A DNA stretch of 64,000 nucleotides from Alphaproteobacteria bacterium (GTDB lineage Bacteria > Pseudomonadota > Alphaproteobacteria > Sphingomonadales > Sphingomonadaceae): the NCBI GenBank assembly GCA_030431875.1, contig JAUIIG010000001.1, forward strand, positions 101,539 through 165,538. Direction: 5' to 3'. Position 1 is the first letter of the stretch. The number at the start of each line of letters is the position of its first letter. A program made the translations under genes and the position numbers. The notes under the pieces were generated by a model that was given only the letters and a program-made list of their open reading frames with translations, was not told the DNA's origin and did no database searches. Shown in pieces: positions 44,494-54,370 of the stretch.

Positions 44494-45138
44494 CTAGCCA
44501 GCGGCGTAAAGCAGGCGGCCTTCGCCCAGCAGCTCCAGGATCTGCGCGATTTCGTCTTGCTCGAAAGCGAAGCAGCCGAGGCTGCGCCCTACGCGGCCCT
44601 GGTTCTCCGCCATGGCGCTGTCGACGTAGTTGGCGCCGTGGATCACGATCGCCCGGTCGAAGGCGTTGCTGTTGTCGTCCTCCAGGCCGTGCAGCCGGCG
44701 CGAACGGCCGTGCTTGCCCACGTATTCTGCGCCGGTGACATAGCTGCCGCGCGAAGAGGCATTGGAGCCTGGCACGTTGGAAAAGCGTTCGGCAAAGCCG
44801 CTGTTGGCCGGGTCCGACCCGCGCCCGTGCGAGACAAGGAACGACTTGGTGATCTCTCCCGCTTCGACGTCGGCGAGGTGGAAGCGGAATTCGCGCGAAT
44901 GAACGGTGTAGTCGGCGATGCCGATACGGTCGGCGAAGGTAATATTGCCGCGATGACGCTCTAGCGCCCTGAGTGCCTCGCCCAACACGCCTTGCGGTGC
45001 TGGAGGGGCCGGTTGTGGCAGGACAGGCGCCGGCTCGCGCAGCAGGTGGCGCGTGGGCGATGCAATCGATTGGGGCGCAACGATTGCGCTTGCGGTTGCC
45101 AGCGAAGCGCCCATGAATACGCGTCTGGAAATGTGCAT
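44494..45138 (-). CDS. Murein L,D-transpeptidase catalytic domain family protein
   Basis: FLVSHGRGSDP...VPGSNASSRGSYVTGAEYVGKHGRSRRLHGLEDDNSNAFDRAIVIHGANYVD...GRSLGCFAF. Confidence 0.82.
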   Translation of the reverse strand: MHISRRVFMGASLATASAIVAPQSIASPTRHLLREPAPVLPQPAPPAPQGVLGEALRALERHRGNITFADRIGIADYTVHSREFRFHLADVEAGEITKSFLVSHGRGSDPANSGFAERFSNVPGSNASSRGSYVTGAEYVGKHGRSRRLHGLEDDNSNAFDRAIVIHGANYVDSAMAENQGRVGRSLGCFAFEQDEIAQILELLGEGRLLYAAG

Positions 45139-45144
45139 TTTGTT

Positions 45145-45183
45145 CTCGATCCCGTATATGTCTTTTCTCTAATATAAGGATCG
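45145..45183. promoter_or_regulatory. Inverted repeat TCGATCC-N25-GGATCGA in divergent L,D-transpeptidase promoter
   Basis: 7-bp perfect arms in the 77-bp divergent intergenic region. Confidence 0.4.
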
Positions 45184-45215
45184 AAAGGCACAGAAGCAAT
45201 GAAACGGGTGCGGAT

Positions 45216-46436
45216 ATGGCAATTCTGAAGACGATCTGCGCGGCGCTGGTCCTCGGTCTTTTTGTCACTCCGGCGGCGGCGCAGGAGTGGTCTCCTGCCG
45301 AGCTGACGACGCTGCATCGCTGGGTCGTCATGGCTCCGGTCGAGGGTCTGCCGCGCTTGCCGAACGATGCCCTGCAGGCGGCGCGCGCAGCCGGCGATGC
45401 AGAGGCGATCGACCGCGAGGCCACCGATCTAGCCCTGCGGCTGGCACGCATGCACCTGCTGGGAAGTGCCACACAGGCAGAGCGCAGTGGCTGGCACATC
45501 GTCGATACCGATGCGGACATGCCGCTGGAGGACATGCTGGCCACGGCTCTGAGCGAGAACCGGCTCGATTCCTTCTTCGCCGGTTTGCGGCCGCTCGATC
45601 ACGAATATGCCGTGCTGCGGGCGGTCTACTTCGGCGAGACCGACCCGGAGCGGCGGCAGGCTATTGCCCGCAACATGGAGCGCTGGCGCTGGCTGCCGCG
45701 CGCCCTGGGTGAAGACTACGTGCTGGTGAACGCCGCCCGGTTCGAGGCAGACCTGTGGCGCGATGGTAGCCATGTCGGCACCTGGCGCGTCATCGTCGGG
45801 ACCACCCGCACGCCGACCCCGGTGTTCCGGGCGACCATCGAAGGCGTCGTCCTGAACCCCTGGTGGGAAGTGCCCGCCAGCATTGCCCGCGAAAGCGTCG
45901 CCGCTTTGGTGCGGAACAATCCTGCTGCCGCGCGAGCGCGTGGTTATGTCTACGAGAACGGCCGTTACCGCCAGCGTCCGGGGCCGAACAACGCCCTTGG
46001 GCAGATGAAGCTGGTCATGCCCAACCCCTATTCGGTCTACATGCACGACACCCCCAACCGCGACCTGTTCGAGCGCGAGGTGCGCAGCTTTAGCCACGGC
46101 TGCATCCGCACCGGCGATGCCATCGGCTATGCGACAACCCTGCTGGAAGGCGTCGTGACCCGCGAGGAAATCGATGCGATCCTCGAATCCGGCCAGACGC
46201 GCACTCTATCGATTGCCGAGCCGCTGCCGGTATACATTACCTATTTCACCGCAGTGAGCGACGGTTTGGGCGGCGTCGCGATCCTCGACGACATCTACAA
46301 CCGCGATCACAATATCCGGGTGAGCGAAAGCGAAGGGCGGGGCGGCACGGTAGCGCGCGCTGCACTCGCCGCATGGCCCTTGGTGGGCAGCGCCTTGGCC
46401 GTCCCGCAAGATGGTGAAGGGGATTGCGCGGGCTAG
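45216..46436 (+). CDS. YcbB-like L,D-transpeptidase (YkuD domain)
   Basis: GTTRTPTPVFRATIEGVVLNPWWEVPASIARES...MKLVMPNPYSVYMHDTPNRDLFEREVRSFSHGCIRTGDA. Confidence 0.9.
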   Translation: MAILKTICAALVLGLFVTPAAAQEWSPAELTTLHRWVVMAPVEGLPRLPNDALQAARAAGDAEAIDREATDLALRLARMHLLGSATQAERSGWHIVDTDADMPLEDMLATALSENRLDSFFAGLRPLDHEYAVLRAVYFGETDPERRQAIARNMERWRWLPRALGEDYVLVNAARFEADLWRDGSHVGTWRVIVGTTRTPTPVFRATIEGVVLNPWWEVPASIARESVAALVRNNPAAARARGYVYENGRYRQRPGPNNALGQMKLVMPNPYSVYMHDTPNRDLFEREVRSFSHGCIRTGDAIGYATTLLEGVVTREEIDAILESGQTRTLSIAEPLPVYITYFTAVSDGLGGVAILDDIYNRDHNIRVSESEGRGGTVARAALAAWPLVGSALAVPQDGEGDCAG

Positions 46437-47409: not shown

Positions 47410-48579
47410 ATGAAGACCCAGGTTTGCATCATTGGCGCTGGCCCTGCCGGCCTGTTGCTCGGCCACCTGCTGCGTGCCGAGGGCGTTGACTGCGTGGTGC
47501 TGGAGCGCCGCACGCCCGACTATGTGCTCAGCCGCATCCGTGCCGGCGTGCTGGAGACCATCACCGTCGACCTGATGGAGCGGCTTGGCCTCGATGCCCG
47601 CATGAAGGCCGAAGGGCTGTGGCATGACGGTTTCAACCTCGCCGATGGCGAGCGCCTGATCCGCATCGACATGGCTGATCTGGTGGGCAGCCGGGTGATG
47701 GTCTACGGCCAGACCGAGATCACCCGTGACCTTATGGACGCCTGCGATGATCGCGCGCTGGAAGTGATCTACGAGGCCGACGATGTCGCCTTGCACGAGG
47801 TCGAGGGCGAGGCGCCTTATGTCACCTACACCAAGGATGACTGCGAACACCGAATCGACTGCCGCTTTATCGCCGGTTGCGACGGCTTCCACGGTCCGAG
47901 TCGCAAGGCCATTCCGGCTAACGTCGGTACCGAATACGAACGGGTCTATCCGTTTGGCTGGCTCGGCATCCTGGCCGACGTGCCGCCCTGCAACCACGAG
48001 CTGATCTACGCCAACCACGAGCGCGGCTTTGCGCTTGCCTCGATGCGCAGCGAAACGCGCAGCCGCTATTATGTCGACGTGCCGCTCACCGACAAGGTGG
48101 AAGAGTGGAGCGACGACCGTCTGTGGGATGAACTGGCCATCCGCCTCGGCCCCGATGCCGCCGCCAATATCACCCGCGGTCCGGCGCTGGAGAAGAGCAT
48201 CGCCCCGCTGCGCAGTTATGTCTTCGCACCCATGCGCCACGGCAGCCTGCTGTTGTGCGGCGATTCCGCGCATATCGTGCCGCCAACCGGTGCCAAGGGA
48301 CTGAACCTTGCTGCCAGCGACGTGCACTATGCCGCCGCTGCGCTCACCGGGTTCTTCAAGGCCAACAATAACGATGCCGTCGCGGCCTATTCCGACACCG
48401 CCCTGGCGCGCGTTTGGAAGAGCGAGCGCTTCAGCTGGACGCTGACCAAGCTGATGCACCGTTTCCCCGAAGACGGCCCGTTCGAGCGCGCCATGCAGGT
48501 GGCCGAGCTGGACTATATCGCCAACAGCCGCGCGGCGCAGACGACGATTGCCGAAAACTACGTCGGCTTGCCGGTCTGA
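47410..48579 (+). CDS. pobA: 4-hydroxybenzoate 3-monooxygenase
   Basis: CIIGAGPAGLLLGHLLRAEGVDCVVLERR, RIRAGVLE, GCDGFHGPSRKAIP, GDSAHIVPPTGAKGLNLAASDV. Confidence 0.95.
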   Translation: MKTQVCIIGAGPAGLLLGHLLRAEGVDCVVLERRTPDYVLSRIRAGVLETITVDLMERLGLDARMKAEGLWHDGFNLADGERLIRIDMADLVGSRVMVYGQTEITRDLMDACDDRALEVIYEADDVALHEVEGEAPYVTYTKDDCEHRIDCRFIAGCDGFHGPSRKAIPANVGTEYERVYPFGWLGILADVPPCNHELIYANHERGFALASMRSETRSRYYVDVPLTDKVEEWSDDRLWDELAIRLGPDAAANITRGPALEKSIAPLRSYVFAPMRHGSLLLCGDSAHIVPPTGAKGLNLAASDVHYAAAALTGFFKANNNDAVAAYSDTALARVWKSERFSWTLTKLMHRFPEDGPFERAMQVAELDYIANSRAAQTTIAENYVGLPV

Positions 48580-48623
48580 TGCGCCTCGGCCTGCAGGCCG
48601 ATCCGCCGTGCGACAGACAGAAC

Positions 48624-51170
48624 CTACCTGCTGACCGTCATGCTCACTTGCATGTCCAGCGGGCGGACCGGGGTGGCCGGAGGTTCGGTGACGACGAGTT
48701 TTACCCAGAGGGCGTCTTCTCCTCTGAAGTAAGAAGTCTCGTTCGCGGCGCGCAAGGCGTCCATGCTTTCCTGCTGGGTGCCGGAGGCGGCGCTGCTGAA
48801 GCCCGGCAGCTGGAACATGACCCAGGACCCCTGGTCCATCTCGCTCAAGCCGAGGGAGACTTCCGGCCTTTCGGTCTGCACCTCGATCTCGATACCGGAG
48901 CGCACAGTGCTCTGGTTGCCCGTGACGGGATATTGCGTGCCATTGCGGACGAGCGTGATGGGTGCCTGTTCGGGAGGGTTCATCGCGCCAAGTCGCCCGT
49001 TTCGCCGTGCCAGATAGAGGCGGCCGACATCGCCGGTACATACCGAAGCGTTCCAGCTGGGATGGATCTCGCAGCTGTCATCGTTGACCACGCTGTTGAA
49101 CTCGCCATCGTGGAGCATGATGTGGGAATCGGGAATACCGGTCACCGAACCGTCGAGATCGTGGATCGACAGGGTCCGGTAGGCCACGCCGCCGCGGTTG
49201 TCGTTGTCGTACCTTATGTCATAGTTCGGGAAATAGACCGGCTTGGCGTTGATGAATTCCGCACCCTCGATGGTGCTGGCAGTCGTGACGCCCGAGCTGG
49301 TGAACAGCAGCCAGGATAGCGCCCCGGTCCTGCGCCGCTCGTTGTCCTCGAAGTTCACGAAGGTCGTGTTCACCACCTCGTCGCGGTAGTCATAATATTC
49401 GTAAGCGCGGATCGGGAAATCCGGGATCGGCGGTTTGGGCAGGCTGCGGCCGTAGGCGATCTCCTCCGGCGTGGTTGGGTTGCCGATGTTGTCGGTTTCG
49501 CCCACGATCAGCGAATCTTCGAGGCGCGAGGTAAATACCTGGCTGCCGAAATCGCCCGATGAATGGGTCATGCCGATGGCATTGTCGGCGAGCCGCAGGT
49601 TATGGAAGATGTGTAGTTCGCCGCGGCCCCAGAGGCCACCATTGCGGTTCTTGTAGCTGGTCAAATCCTCGAACATGGTTTCCACGAAGGCGCTGTCAGG
49701 ATTGGCCGGGTCTTCGCGCGGCATGAAGGCGTTTCCGGCGAGGCCGAAAGTGTTATCCTCGTTGATGTTCCTGTCGAACAGGAACCCGTCGAAGTTGGAA
49801 TGGGCCACGTTGCCCCTGAATTCGCGCAGCGGCGTGCGGCGCGGCCAGGTGTTTGCGGCCACTTCCGTGCCAAGGAAGGCGCCATTGGGGTGTTCGGGCA
49901 GCGATAGCCAGAAGCCGACCTGGTCAGAACCGGCCGCTACATTGCCAATGTAGGTGTTGTCCGGATTGGTGATCCAGAAGGAGGCCACGGTATTGTCTGA
50001 CGGCAGCAATGTGGCCCCGCCGTGGAAGCTGATTTCCCGCACCGTCATGCGGTTCGCATAGGTATAGTTGTTCTCACCATTGGCGGCGAGGTTGGTGGGG
50101 ACGCAGTCCAGCGTCGGATGGCACTTGGTCTGGATCGCAAGGTTGCTGACGAAGCGGTTACCGGTTTCGATCCCGTCTTCCATGAAGAAGCAGTGGCCGA
50201 CGGTATTGTAGGTTACGTTGTTCTCGATCTGCAGGTTGTTGGTGCCGTGCACCGTCACGCAGCGGTTGAAGGTGTCGTGGATCGAGGCATTGCGGATGTA
50301 CATGCCCGCGCCTTCTCCCAGCACGTGGAAGTGGAACGGATAGCGCGCCAGCGTCAGGTGCTGGCCCATGCGGTTCAGCTCCACGCTGTCGACGTACATG
50401 CGCGATCCGGCCATCGCCATGATGTGGCCGCCGAAATGGTTCGTCGATGCATCTTCGGAAGCCTGGATGCGGATATTGCGGGTCAGGTTGGCCACCTCGC
50501 CGCGCTCGTCCACGCCGAAGGTGATCTCGCCGAAATGCATGTAGTCCAGCGGAGCATCGAAGGTGACCACGTTGCCGTTCACCGCGGTGATCGTGCGGCG
50601 CTCTGCCTGGCGCGGATTGAAGTCGGTGGAGGCGAGGACAACTTCGTCACCCGCCTGCCAGCCAGATGCGTCCAGCACCGTGAAAGAAGTGCTGCCAGCC
50701 TCGGCCGTGGCGGCGAGCTTGGACCACGTATTCTCGCTGGTGCCATGCAGGTTGAGCGTGCCGCCCATCAGCATGATGCCGCGGTCGCCCATGGTGTTTA
50801 TGTCTTCGCCCCGGACATTGTCGGTGAGGGTAATGGTGGCGTCGTGCTGGTAGGGTTGGTCTTCGGTGCCGATGGTCAGCGACCCGCCCGGGACGTAGAT
50901 CCACTCGCTCTCCAGGCTGATGTCGCGCTCGTCGGAGAAGGTCAGGCTGCCCAGCACGGTCAGGCTGCGCAGGCCCGGGGCATCGACGTCGAGCACCACG
51001 TCCATGTCGCGGGTGATCTCCACCGCATCTCCTGCGGCAGGCACCTGTCCGCTAGGCCAGGTATCAGGGTCGGACCACAACGATTGGGCATGGGCGGCAG
51101 AGCCCGCTCCCAGCAGGCCAAGGGCCGAACCAAGCAAGGCGGATTTCAGCAAGCGATACGGCAAGTGCAT
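48624..51170 (-). CDS. Secreted G8-domain/right-handed beta-helix protein, CEMIP/TMEM2-like
   Basis: Signal peptide; G8 LWSDPDTWPSGQVPAAGDAVEITRDMDVVLD; FNRCVTVHGTNNLQIENNVTYNTVGHCFFMEDGIETGNRFVSNLA resembles animal CEMIP. Confidence 0.82.
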   Translation of the reverse strand: MHLPYRLLKSALLGSALGLLGAGSAAHAQSLWSDPDTWPSGQVPAAGDAVEITRDMDVVLDVDAPGLRSLTVLGSLTFSDERDISLESEWIYVPGGSLTIGTEDQPYQHDATITLTDNVRGEDINTMGDRGIMLMGGTLNLHGTSENTWSKLAATAEAGSTSFTVLDASGWQAGDEVVLASTDFNPRQAERRTITAVNGNVVTFDAPLDYMHFGEITFGVDERGEVANLTRNIRIQASEDASTNHFGGHIMAMAGSRMYVDSVELNRMGQHLTLARYPFHFHVLGEGAGMYIRNASIHDTFNRCVTVHGTNNLQIENNVTYNTVGHCFFMEDGIETGNRFVSNLAIQTKCHPTLDCVPTNLAANGENNYTYANRMTVREISFHGGATLLPSDNTVASFWITNPDNTYIGNVAAGSDQVGFWLSLPEHPNGAFLGTEVAANTWPRRTPLREFRGNVAHSNFDGFLFDRNINEDNTFGLAGNAFMPREDPANPDSAFVETMFEDLTSYKNRNGGLWGRGELHIFHNLRLADNAIGMTHSSGDFGSQVFTSRLEDSLIVGETDNIGNPTTPEEIAYGRSLPKPPIPDFPIRAYEYYDYRDEVVNTTFVNFEDNERRRTGALSWLLFTSSGVTTASTIEGAEFINAKPVYFPNYDIRYDNDNRGGVAYRTLSIHDLDGSVTGIPDSHIMLHDGEFNSVVNDDSCEIHPSWNASVCTGDVGRLYLARRNGRLGAMNPPEQAPITLVRNGTQYPVTGNQSTVRSGIEIEVQTERPEVSLGLSEMDQGSWVMFQLPGFSSAASGTQQESMDALRAANETSYFRGEDALWVKLVVTEPPATPVRPLDMQVSMTVSR

Positions 51171-51302
51171 GGCTATTTCCCCTCCTGCGGGTTCCCAATC
51201 CCGCACCCATGATTTTTCGCGAGTTTGCCCAGAGGATGCAGGTTTGCCAAGGGCCTGGGGCACATGTCCTCCCTTGGCTCGTCAGGCCTTTCTGCGGGCT
51301 TC

Positions 51303-52295
51303 CTACGATTCGAAGTCGACCGGATAGGGCTTGAGTTCGCCCGAGGCGTAGCGCTGCTCTAGCCCGGGCGTGCCATTCTCCATCACCATCAGCATGGAGC
51401 GCTTGGGGGCGAAGCCCTGGTGCCGGATATCGGCGGGCATGGCACAAACGTCGCCTGCTTTCATCACGATGCGGCCGCGCGGCGCGCCGGAATTCTTGTC
51501 GGCAATGTTCCAGTGGATCTCGTCGGTGAGCTGGATGAACCACTCGTTGCGGTCGTTCCCGTGGATGACCGGCAACATGTGCTCTTCGGAGGTCACGCAG
51601 CAAATGTTCGCCCGGGTAATCGCGCTGATCGACGGATTCCAGGTGATGTCGGAACGGGCAATGTGATCGAACAGGTTGATGGCGTGCAACTGCCCCTCGA
51701 AGCCCGGCTCGCATTCGATCTCGGGCTGGTCGAACTCCAGGTCCGCAAAGGCGCGGTTGATGCCGAAGCCGTCTGCCTCGGTCCGCACCGACTTGTCGCC
51801 CGGCAAGCCCAGCATACGATCAGCAGCGATGAAGCTGCGCAGTAGCGGGTCCGTACGTTCCTTGCCCTTGGGACCAATGGGGGAACCGGTTTCCAGCGGG
51901 GCGTTGAGCGGATCATAGCCCTCGCTGATCCAGTCCTTCGATATCGTCTCGAACGCTTCGGAAACGGCTTCGGCGGAATAGGTTTCGAGGAAGTCGATGC
52001 CGGCTTCCTTGCAACCACGATCATAGGCTCCGGCGAAAATATCGACCGTGCCATAGTGATTGGTGGTCCCGAAAACATCGTCGAAGAAGATCCAGCCATA
52101 GAAGAAGCCCCAGCCGATATCGCGCACCATGGCGCGCAGGAAGCGGTCGACCTCGATGATATGGCTGCCCTTGGGCCAAGCGACATGGGCGAAATACTCG
52201 TCACGGCTGAAGGTGAAACTGCCAAAGCGGTAGCTGGAGTAGCCGGTGGCTTCGTCAGTGCCGATTTTTTCGACCTTGGCTTCGGTAACGCTCAT
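51303..52295 (-). CDS. Cupin-type large subunit, probable hydroquinone (or hydroxyquinol) ring-cleavage dioxygenase
   Basis: 330 aa, EEHMLPVIHGNDRNEWFIQLTDEIHWNIADKNSGAPRGRIVMKAGDVCAMPADIRHQGFAPKRSMLMVMEN; paired with ~168-aa cupin; ALDH adjacent. Confidence 0.55.
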   Translation of the reverse strand: MSVTEAKVEKIGTDEATGYSSYRFGSFTFSRDEYFAHVAWPKGSHIIEVDRFLRAMVRDIGWGFFYGWIFFDDVFGTTNHYGTVDIFAGAYDRGCKEAGIDFLETYSAEAVSEAFETISKDWISEGYDPLNAPLETGSPIGPKGKERTDPLLRSFIAADRMLGLPGDKSVRTEADGFGINRAFADLEFDQPEIECEPGFEGQLHAINLFDHIARSDITWNPSISAITRANICCVTSEEHMLPVIHGNDRNEWFIQLTDEIHWNIADKNSGAPRGRIVMKAGDVCAMPADIRHQGFAPKRSMLMVMENGTPGLEQRYASGELKPYPVDFES

Positions 52296-52798
52296 TGCAC
52301 CTTCTCCCCGCCCATGACGCAGATCTCGGACCACCGCTTGACCGTTTCGGGGCCTTCTACTGTTTGCAGGACGGCAACTGCCGGCGCGCCGGATACCAGC
52401 TGGTAGGCAGCGCCCTTCGGCAGCAGCACCTGGTGCCCGCGCCGTGCGGTGACGCGGCCCATGTTGGGGCCGTTGGGCTTGGCGCCAAGCTTGATCGCAC
52501 CGCCATCGTGGCTCGGCACCTGGCCGTCCTCAAGCTTCACGAAATGGAAGGTGATCTCGCCATCCATCACGATCGCGAACTCGTCGTGCGGGGCCGCGTA
52601 CCAGCCGGACTCTCCTTCGCTGCGGACCACCTCGGCGGTGTATTCGAGGTTCTGGACTACGGCGACGCGCTCGAACGGCTGCGCTGCGCCGGCGACTTCG
52701 AAGATGTTGGAGAAGGCATATTTGCGCAGGTCGTCATCGAGCTCGATCACGCCTTTTTCGTAGTTGTCGAGCGAGCCTACGCGCGTCTTGTAAGCCAT
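52292..52798 (-). CDS. Cupin-type small subunit of the putative dioxygenase
   Basis: MAYKTRVGSLDNYEKGVIELDDD...APHDEFAIVMDGEITFHFVKLED...GHQVLLPKGAAYQLVSG; only the C-terminal third of track ORF 52292-54244 is real; overlaps large subunit start. Confidence 0.6.
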   Translation of the reverse strand: MAYKTRVGSLDNYEKGVIELDDDLRKYAFSNIFEVAGAAQPFERVAVVQNLEYTAEVVRSEGESGWYAAPHDEFAIVMDGEITFHFVKLEDGQVPSHDGGAIKLGAKPNGPNMGRVTARRGHQVLLPKGAAYQLVSGAPAVAVLQTVEGPETVKRWSEICVMGGEKVQ

Positions 52799-52948
52799 AT
52801 CCCACCTCTCCCCCAGCGTGGCCTTTGTCGGCCATCGAAAGGAGAAGCTAACACCAGGTATCGGCTCCTCGCAATGGGGCAGTGCGCTTGACGCTTTGGC
52901 CCCCAGCAAGCAGGGAGCAGCGACAAGTTCCGAGGAGAGGACACCGCC

Positions 52949-54370
52949 TTGCAGACCGACACCCGCCATTACATCGACGGCCAATGGGTCGACCGGCCCA
53001 ATGCCGAGCTTATCCCTGTTACCAATCCGGCGACTGAAGAGGTGTTCGGGCAGATCGGTGCAGGTACCTTGGAGGATGTCGACCTGGCTATGGCTGCCGC
53101 GCGACGCGCCTTCGACAGTTTCTCGCAAACCAGTGTTGCCGATCGCATTGCCTTGCTTGAACGGATCCGCGACCTGCTGGAAGAACGCACCGAAGAGTTC
53201 GCGCAGGCCATAACGCAAGAGATGGGCGCGGCGATCACCTTCTCTCGCGCGGGACAGGTGCATTTCGGTATCGAGCACGTCCGCGCAGCGATCGAAGTGC
53301 TGCAGGAGTTCGCCTGGCAGGAAGAGATCCACGGCATCACCGTGCGCAAGGAGCCGATCGGCGTCGTCTCGATGATCACGCCGTGGAACTGGCCGCTCTA
53401 CCAGATCACCGCCAAGCTGGCCCCGGCGCTGGCAGCGGGCTGCACCATGGTGCTGAAGCCCAGCGAGCTTTCCCCCTTCACCGCGCAACTGTGGGCGCAG
53501 GTGGTGCATGATGCGGGCGTTCCCGCGGGCGTGATCAACGTGGTTCACGGAACCGGCGAAGTGGTGGGCGAGGCGCTGGCCGCGCACCCTGAAGCCGACA
53601 TGGTCAGCTTTACCGGCTCGACCCGCGCAGGCGTGCTGGTGGCGCAGGCTGCCGCGCCGACGGTGAAGCGCGTGGTGCAGGAACTGGGCGGCAAGTCGCC
53701 CAACGTCTTCCTCGATGACGCCGATTTCGCCGATGCCGTGCCCAAGGGCGTGCTGGGCGCAATGCGCAATGTCGGCCAATCCTGCGCTGCCCCCACCCGG
53801 ATGGTGGTTCCCCGATCGCGGCTGGCCGAGGTCGAGGGACTCGCGGCCGCCGCAGCCAACGGCATTGTCGTAACCGATCCGCGGGACGAGAATGCCTTCA
53901 TCGGACCGCTCGCCAATGCCGCGCAATTCGACAAGGTGCAGGGGCTGATCCAGGTCGGTATGGAGGAAGGGGCCAAGTTGCTGTGTGGTGGCCTTGGGCG
54001 CCCGCAGGGCCTCAATCGCGGTTTCTTCGTGCGCCCCACCATCTTCTCCGAAGTGACACCAGACATGCGCATCGCGCAGGAGGAGATCTTCGGGCCGGTG
54101 CTGGTGATCCAGGCCTACGAGGACGAGGAAGACGCAATTCGCATCGCCAATGCCACCAGCTATGGCCTCAGCAGCCACGTGCAGTCCGGCGACCACGAAC
54201 GCGCCCGACGCGTGGCTGGCCGCATCCGGGCGGGGCAGGTGCACATCAACTACCCGGCATGGTCACGGCATGCGCCGTTTGGCGGCTACAAGATGAGCGG
54301 CAACGGGCGCGAATACGGCTATTTTGCGGTCGAGGAGTACTGTGAGGTCAAGGCTATCCTCGGCTACTGA
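52949..54370 (+). CDS. Aldehyde dehydrogenase (TTG start)
   Basis: VVSMITPWNWPLYQITAKLAPALAAGCTMVLKPSE, FTGSTRAGVLVAQAAA, VVQELGGKSPNVFLDDAD, NVGQSCAAPTR. Confidence 0.93.
   Translation: MQTDTRHYIDGQWVDRPNAELIPVTNPATEEVFGQIGAGTLEDVDLAMAAARRAFDSFSQTSVADRIALLERIRDLLEERTEEFAQAITQEMGAAITFSRAGQVHFGIEHVRAAIEVLQEFAWQEEIHGITVRKEPIGVVSMITPWNWPLYQITAKLAPALAAGCTMVLKPSELSPFTAQLWAQVVHDAGVPAGVINVVHGTGEVVGEALAAHPEADMVSFTGSTRAGVLVAQAAAPTVKRVVQELGGKSPNVFLDDADFADAVPKGVLGAMRNVGQSCAAPTRMVVPRSRLAEVEGLAAAAANGIVVTDPRDENAFIGPLANAAQFDKVQGLIQVGMEEGAKLLCGGLGRPQGLNRGFFVRPTIFSEVTPDMRIAQEEIFGPVLVIQAYEDEEDAIRIANATSYGLSSHVQSGDHERARRVAGRIRAGQVHINYPAWSRHAPFGGYKMSGNGREYGYFAVEEYCEVKAILGY

Follow-up and report, generated by a model that had tools for sequence, protein, structure and literature searches.

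A gene on the minus strand of the analyzed window (the whole 64,000-nucleotide stretch of a Sphingomonadaceae genome) encodes an exported protein that shares homology and fold with the animal proteins CEMIP and TMEM2 over the entire beta-helix. On balance, the product is probably an exported single-chain, right-handed beta-helix polysaccharide depolymerase of the CEMIP-core family. Hyaluronan depolymerization with a need for calcium is ascribed to the animal CEMIP/TMEM2 hyaluronidases, and we know of no activity for any bacterial member of the family. The features discussed below are located in Table 1.

Table 1. Features of the gene, its product and its two flanking genes, in window coordinates.
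Feature	Residues	Position	Strand	Basis or remark
pobA, 4-hydroxybenzoate 3-monooxygenase		47410..48579	+	TIGR02360, 626 bits; convergent with the gene; not regarded as belonging to the system
CEMIP/TMEM2-core secreted protein (G8, right-handed beta-helix, C-terminal beta-rich domain)	848 aa	48624..51170	-	
C-terminal beta-rich domain	741-848	48627..48950	-	Strands in AlphaFold2 model; possible counterpart of TMEM2 "domain X"
Loop 2	466-495	49686..49775	-	Matches TMEM2 loop 733-756; conservation 0.63
CEMIP beta-helix domain	246-461	49788..50435	-	Pfam PF24606 (CEMIP_beta-hel), 2.4e-79
Loop 1	350-395	49986..50123	-	Counterpart of TMEM2 loop 627-662, which lies over the concave face; conservation 0.64
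Predicted active-site stretch	231-335	50166..50480	-	Residues common to bacterial set and TMEM2; putative role
Place of TMEM2 insertion	161-166	50673..50690	-	Nothing inserted in bacterial protein; profile alignment to 8c6i
G8 domain	37-153	50712..51062	-	Pfam PF10162, 2.5e-29
Signal peptide	1-28	51087..51170	-	Sec-type, ends ...AAHAQ; likely cut after AHA
Shine-Dalgarno AGGAGGGG, strong		51179..51186	-	8 bases 5' of the ATG; read directly from the sequence
PnpD-like hydroquinone 1,2-dioxygenase large subunit		51303..52334	-	PF18191, 8.6e-47; not regarded as belonging to the system

The open reading frame was correctly delimited, with an ATG at 51170 and a stop at 48624, and its coding score is the second-highest among the genes called in the window. 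A longer frame starting with GTG at 51263 was set aside as a mechanical extension. A sequence-only reading of this DNA had described a secreted protein with a signal peptide, a G8 domain and a beta-helix resembling the CEMIP/TMEM2 core, and each of these features was recovered. No lipobox was seen in the sequence of the signal peptide, in which residues 6-21 form a helix in the AlphaFold2 model.

Both Pfam matches lie far above their curated cut-offs, with 102 bits against 22.9 for G8 and 266 bits against 27.3 for CEMIP_beta-hel; NCBIfam offered no model for the 848-aa protein. In TMEM2, the beta-helix begins with the G8 region (PMC10206443). Among all PDB sequences, the human TMEM2 ectodomain (8c6i) was the sole significant match, with an E-value of 1.9e-86 when the single sequence was searched and 3.5e-128 when a profile built from 74 bacterial sequences was used, and with approximately 35% identity over 652 aligned positions. 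The match to CEMIP/TMEM2 is not a product of chance. An AlphaFold2 model built from the 74-sequence alignment (pLDDT 88.8, pTM 0.89) again returned 8c6i as the top Foldseek match (E 4.2e-47, TM-score 0.79 by query length), and not the unrelated beta-helix adhesin that the sequence-only reading had named as the contrary outcome. Among the 50 best fold matches, the next ones had TM-scores below 0.3 by query length and comprised capsule lyases, tailspikes and glycosidases; the weaker matches were mostly polysaccharide lyases, glycosidases and phage depolymerases. The protein ends about 110 residues past the helix, and this C-terminal part has no Pfam match and, by sequence, only weak, chance-like matches and none of its own.

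The bacterial protein and the TMEM2 (CEMIP2) ectodomain have in common the G8 region, a continuous right-handed beta-helix, two long loops on the concave face and a cluster of residues. Unlike TMEM2, the bacterial protein has no transmembrane anchor and neither the first nor the second lectin-like domain, and it is exported by means of a signal peptide. CEMIP (KIAA1199, HYBID), compared here by its description in the literature, is likewise secreted but has GG domains, of which the bacterial protein has none; the layout G8-GG-PbH1 is found in both CEMIP and TMEM2 (PMC10276149). A protein of Croceibacterium atlanticum (WP_053833714.1) is of the same kind, with 71% identity over 96% of the query and no difference of substance. 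Proteins from Vitreoscilla filiformis (WP_089418387.1) and Planctomyces (WP_068422758.1) share the G8 domain, the CEMIP-like helix, the RYxxHxH motif and the cluster of H and E residues, but are 28-30% identical and differ in their C-terminal parts. Chondroitinase B (PL6, 1OFM) and the phage capsule depolymerases are also right-handed beta-helix polysaccharide enzymes, yet they have no sequence relation to the protein: the phage depolymerases reach TM-scores of at most about 0.3, and chondroitinase B/PL6 gave no Pfam or PDB sequence match and was absent among the 50 best fold matches.

The difference from the animal proteins that bears most directly on function is the missing lectin-like (GG) domain. 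The profile alignment jumps from residue 166 to residue 340 of the 8c6i chain, and the bacterial chain runs unbroken against the approximately 170 extra TMEM2 residues, which form a small beta-sandwich and lectin-like GG domain 1 (numbering via the PMC10206443 construct). None of the 74 bacterial sequences has an insertion at this site; exactly 23 residues lie between query positions 150 and 172. The GG domain is reported to be essential for the activity of the animal proteins (PMC10276149), and loss-of-function changes reported in it include R265C, D273N, D286N and H248N/A303F in TMEM2 and a change at R187 in CEMIP (PMC10206443, PMC10276149, PMC10474455). Because the domain is absent, hyaluronan cleavage is not transferable to the bacterial protein. 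The earlier designation "CEMIP-like enzyme" thus stands for the core, in sequence and in fold, but not for hyaluronan cleavage.

These results bear on the reading that the protein is a true hyaluronan or glycosaminoglycan depolymerase with which the bacterium feeds on such polymers. Its closest characterized relatives, CEMIP and TMEM2, were reported to depolymerize hyaluronan (PMC10474455), and the core is 35% identical, but the domain reported as essential in those relatives is missing (PMC10276149), no recurrent glycan-use genes lie nearby, and GH88/105 proteins are absent from the organism's own genome and, among the 15 species of the genus that carry the gene, present in just 2. We therefore consider this reading quite unlikely. 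Across the genus, no association between GH88 and the gene was seen, and sulfatases are widespread. Given the absence of GH88/105, it is unlikely that unsaturated uronic oligosaccharides serve as food by lyase-route catabolism of uronic polysaccharides, and we therefore prefer an exported depolymerase or remodeling enzyme for bacterial or environmental polysaccharide.

From the sequence, an active site is predicted at a cluster of ionizable residues on consecutive coils. The residues H212, D221, R223, E225, R231, H249, R276, Y277, H280, H282, H298, R303, C304, H308, H326, C327, E331, D332 and E335 are shared by TMEM2 and at least 95% of the bacterial sequences. Those of the predicted active-site stretch (R231, H249, R276, Y277, H280, H282, H298, R303, H308, H326, E331, D332 and E335) correspond, in order, to TMEM2 R490, H519, R546, Y547, H550, H552, H575, R580, H585, H603, E608, D609 and E612. 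Because the 74 bacterial sequences were retrieved with patterns and none is less than 56% identical to the query, invariance among them is weak in itself; the weight falls on the few distant relatives. In these, the Vitreoscilla, Planctomyces and Antarctobacter proteins (21-30% identity), R231, H249, R276, Y277, H280, H282, H308, E331 and E335 are also found, and H326 is kept in the Vitreoscilla and Planctomyces proteins. Strands 246-252, 279-286, 305-311 and 326-330 of the AlphaFold2 model are successive coils, and the hydrophobic alternation in F279 H280 F281 H282 V283 and in V305 T306 V307 H308 suggests that the histidines point outward. The residues would thus cluster in space, as judged by strand positions in the model and not by geometry.

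Conservation peaks at residues 246-345 (0.86), and few stretches of the helix vary as much as loops 1 and 2; their TMEM2 counterparts, loops 627-662 and 733-756, cover the middle of the concave face (PMC10206443). An invariant floor beneath variable lids is as expected for an enzyme family with varied substrates. The protein could instead lack enzymatic activity and serve at the surface or in biofilms by binding polysaccharide with its beta-helix, in line with one careful study in which TMEM2 had no activity and no active site could be assigned (PMC10206443). However, a single 100-residue stretch holds 16 invariant ionizable residues or cysteines, of which TMEM2 shares most and the outgroups many; this exceeds the needs of a scaffold, and we hold a purely binding role to be rather unlikely.

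As the preferred depolymerase, the single-chain right-handed beta-helix protein would be exported by Sec and act outside the cytoplasm, as an endo-acting enzyme on an extracellular polysaccharide that is probably anionic. The polysaccharide chain would lie along the concave face, beneath two lids formed by the variable loops at residues 350-395 and 466-495, and would be cut by residues on consecutive coils, namely R231, H249, R276-Y277, H280, H282, H308, H326, E331 and E335. The chemistry may be a His/Tyr-type beta-elimination or a hydrolysis, with a metal or none. A possible use is the remodeling of the bacterium's own or its neighbors' exopolysaccharide rather than feeding on animal glycosaminoglycans.

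Window positions 47410-54370 hold a catabolic set made up of pobA, the PnpD- and PnpC-like hydroquinone 1,2-dioxygenase subunits and an aldehyde dehydrogenase, and the pnpCD-aldehyde dehydrogenase arrangement recurs in most of eight other genomes of the genus that were examined. Two adjacent, divergent L,D-transpeptidase (YkuD-type) genes lie at 44494-46436. The sequence-only reading had taken the catabolic genes as a clue to the role of the protein, which a wider comparison did not support. Around approximately 100 copies of the gene, no neighbor family recurred: among 117 neighbor proteins scanned, none was seen in more than five, the commonest being MFS (5 of 117), with Hsp70 or MreB-type genes also occurring, and no conserved glycan gene was found near the copies. 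The neighborhood was accordingly rejected as a clue to the substrate, as the neighbors differ from copy to copy. Many of the genes next to family members encode oxidoreductases, transporters or other small-molecule functions, from which one might suppose that an enzyme of the same fold acts here on a substrate other than a polysaccharide. Yet these neighbors are not conserved, and in the Foldseek search the solved fold relatives that are enzymes mostly have polysaccharides or oligosaccharides as substrates, so we find such a substrate hardly probable at all.

More specific is the proposal that the protein belongs to the hydroquinone/4-hydroxybenzoate catabolic locus and acts on an aromatic-bearing polymer. 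The gene follows pnpD directly and in the same orientation, across 132 bases in which no terminator was seen, its nearest relative (in genome G223) is about 5 kb from pnpD, and the gene is present in all nine pnpD-bearing genomes of the genus against 6 of the 31 others (Fisher p 1.8e-5). The co-occurrence was nevertheless rejected on the rpoB tree, which needs only 4 changes for the gene; at most two of three independent pairs agree, and the pair test cannot reach significance. The association with pnpD is therefore inseparable from descent. Moreover, seven of the eight other pnpD loci examined in the genus have no copy within the stretch covered (some of these stretches being short contigs); G223 alone has one, and there it flanks the pnp genes on the opposite side. 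In G205, the same beta-CASP and YkuD genes are found close to pnpCD, and the interval contains no copy. The three other copies of the organism's own genome also sit elsewhere. We consider a part in this locus very unlikely, and the ecological reading is weak.

The four copies in the organism's own genome are 55-74% identical, a divergence on which a recent gene amplification was rejected. In the genus, 15 of 40 species have between 1 and 12 matches, and copy number thus spreads from none to 12 matches within one genus (G227, G217, G226 and G167 among the genomes noted), several copies being broken at contig ends. The gene was found in 13 of 201 genomes of the family and in 3 of 399 genomes of a phylum sample, all three from the same family as the host. 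Gammaproteobacterial and acidobacterial MAGs and a Croceibacterium plasmid carry further copies, the spread beyond the host phylum being traced through individual loci. Phage and viral collections held no copy, and carriage by phages or viruses was rejected. In a tree, copies from alpha- and gammaproteobacteria are intermixed within several old subfamilies, a pattern that is consistent with duplication and transfer and that paralogy and mis-binned contigs can mimic. Diverged paralogues with a fixed core and variable loops suggest a different substrate for each copy.

Several loci in this survey call for careful reading. In Croceibacterium salegens, a 2756-base contig (L033, NZ_WTYM01000034.1) consists of nothing but the CEMIP-core gene, split by a frame break, as is typical when an assembler collapses near-identical copies. 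Two loci titled Erythrobacter cryptus DSM 12079 and Erythrobacter tepidarius DSM 10594 (L030 and L062) are identical over 2800 bases and share the same frame break in the gene; two separate events were rejected, and this identical DNA counts once. MAGs titled Klebsiella pneumoniae and Bordetella parapertussis (L049 and L098) carry genes that group with MAGs of other groups, and their titles are probably wrong. One assembly (G217) has two rpoB N-terminal matches (C72 and C81) and is possibly a mixed bin. Distant G8 proteins were found on roseobacter plasmids (L129 and matches H4-H10). The Antarctobacter protein among them ends in RTX-like glycine-aspartate repeats, which suggest type I secretion, and is encoded near glycosyltransferase genes.

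The family is already known, since Pfam models match it and NCBI annotates such bacterial proteins as "G8 domain-containing", by domain only; what it offers is a test case for the animal proteins. Our literature search found no paper treating the bacterial branch of the CEMIP-core family. For TMEM2, activity is disputed, having been found absent in one study (PMC10206443), absent for the human protein in a second (PMC10276149) and present in a third, where the purified mouse ectodomain was active (PMC10474455), and the active site is unassigned in all three. We tentatively suggest, as an idea that may well prove wrong, that the lectin-free bacterial proteins are active depolymerases, that R276-Y277-x-x-H280-x-H282 with H249, H308, H326, E331 and E335 marks the active site of human CEMIP/TMEM2 too (in TMEM2: R546, Y547, H550, H552, H519, H585, H603, E608 and E612), and that the GG domain only delivers the substrate. 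A bacterial family with the core and without the GG domain separates catalysis from substrate delivery, and its members are proteins free of animal glycosylation for enzymology. The conserved cluster narrows the choice of residues for mutation in the human protein to a few, and the bacterial protein may in this way help to locate the active site of human CEMIP/TMEM2.
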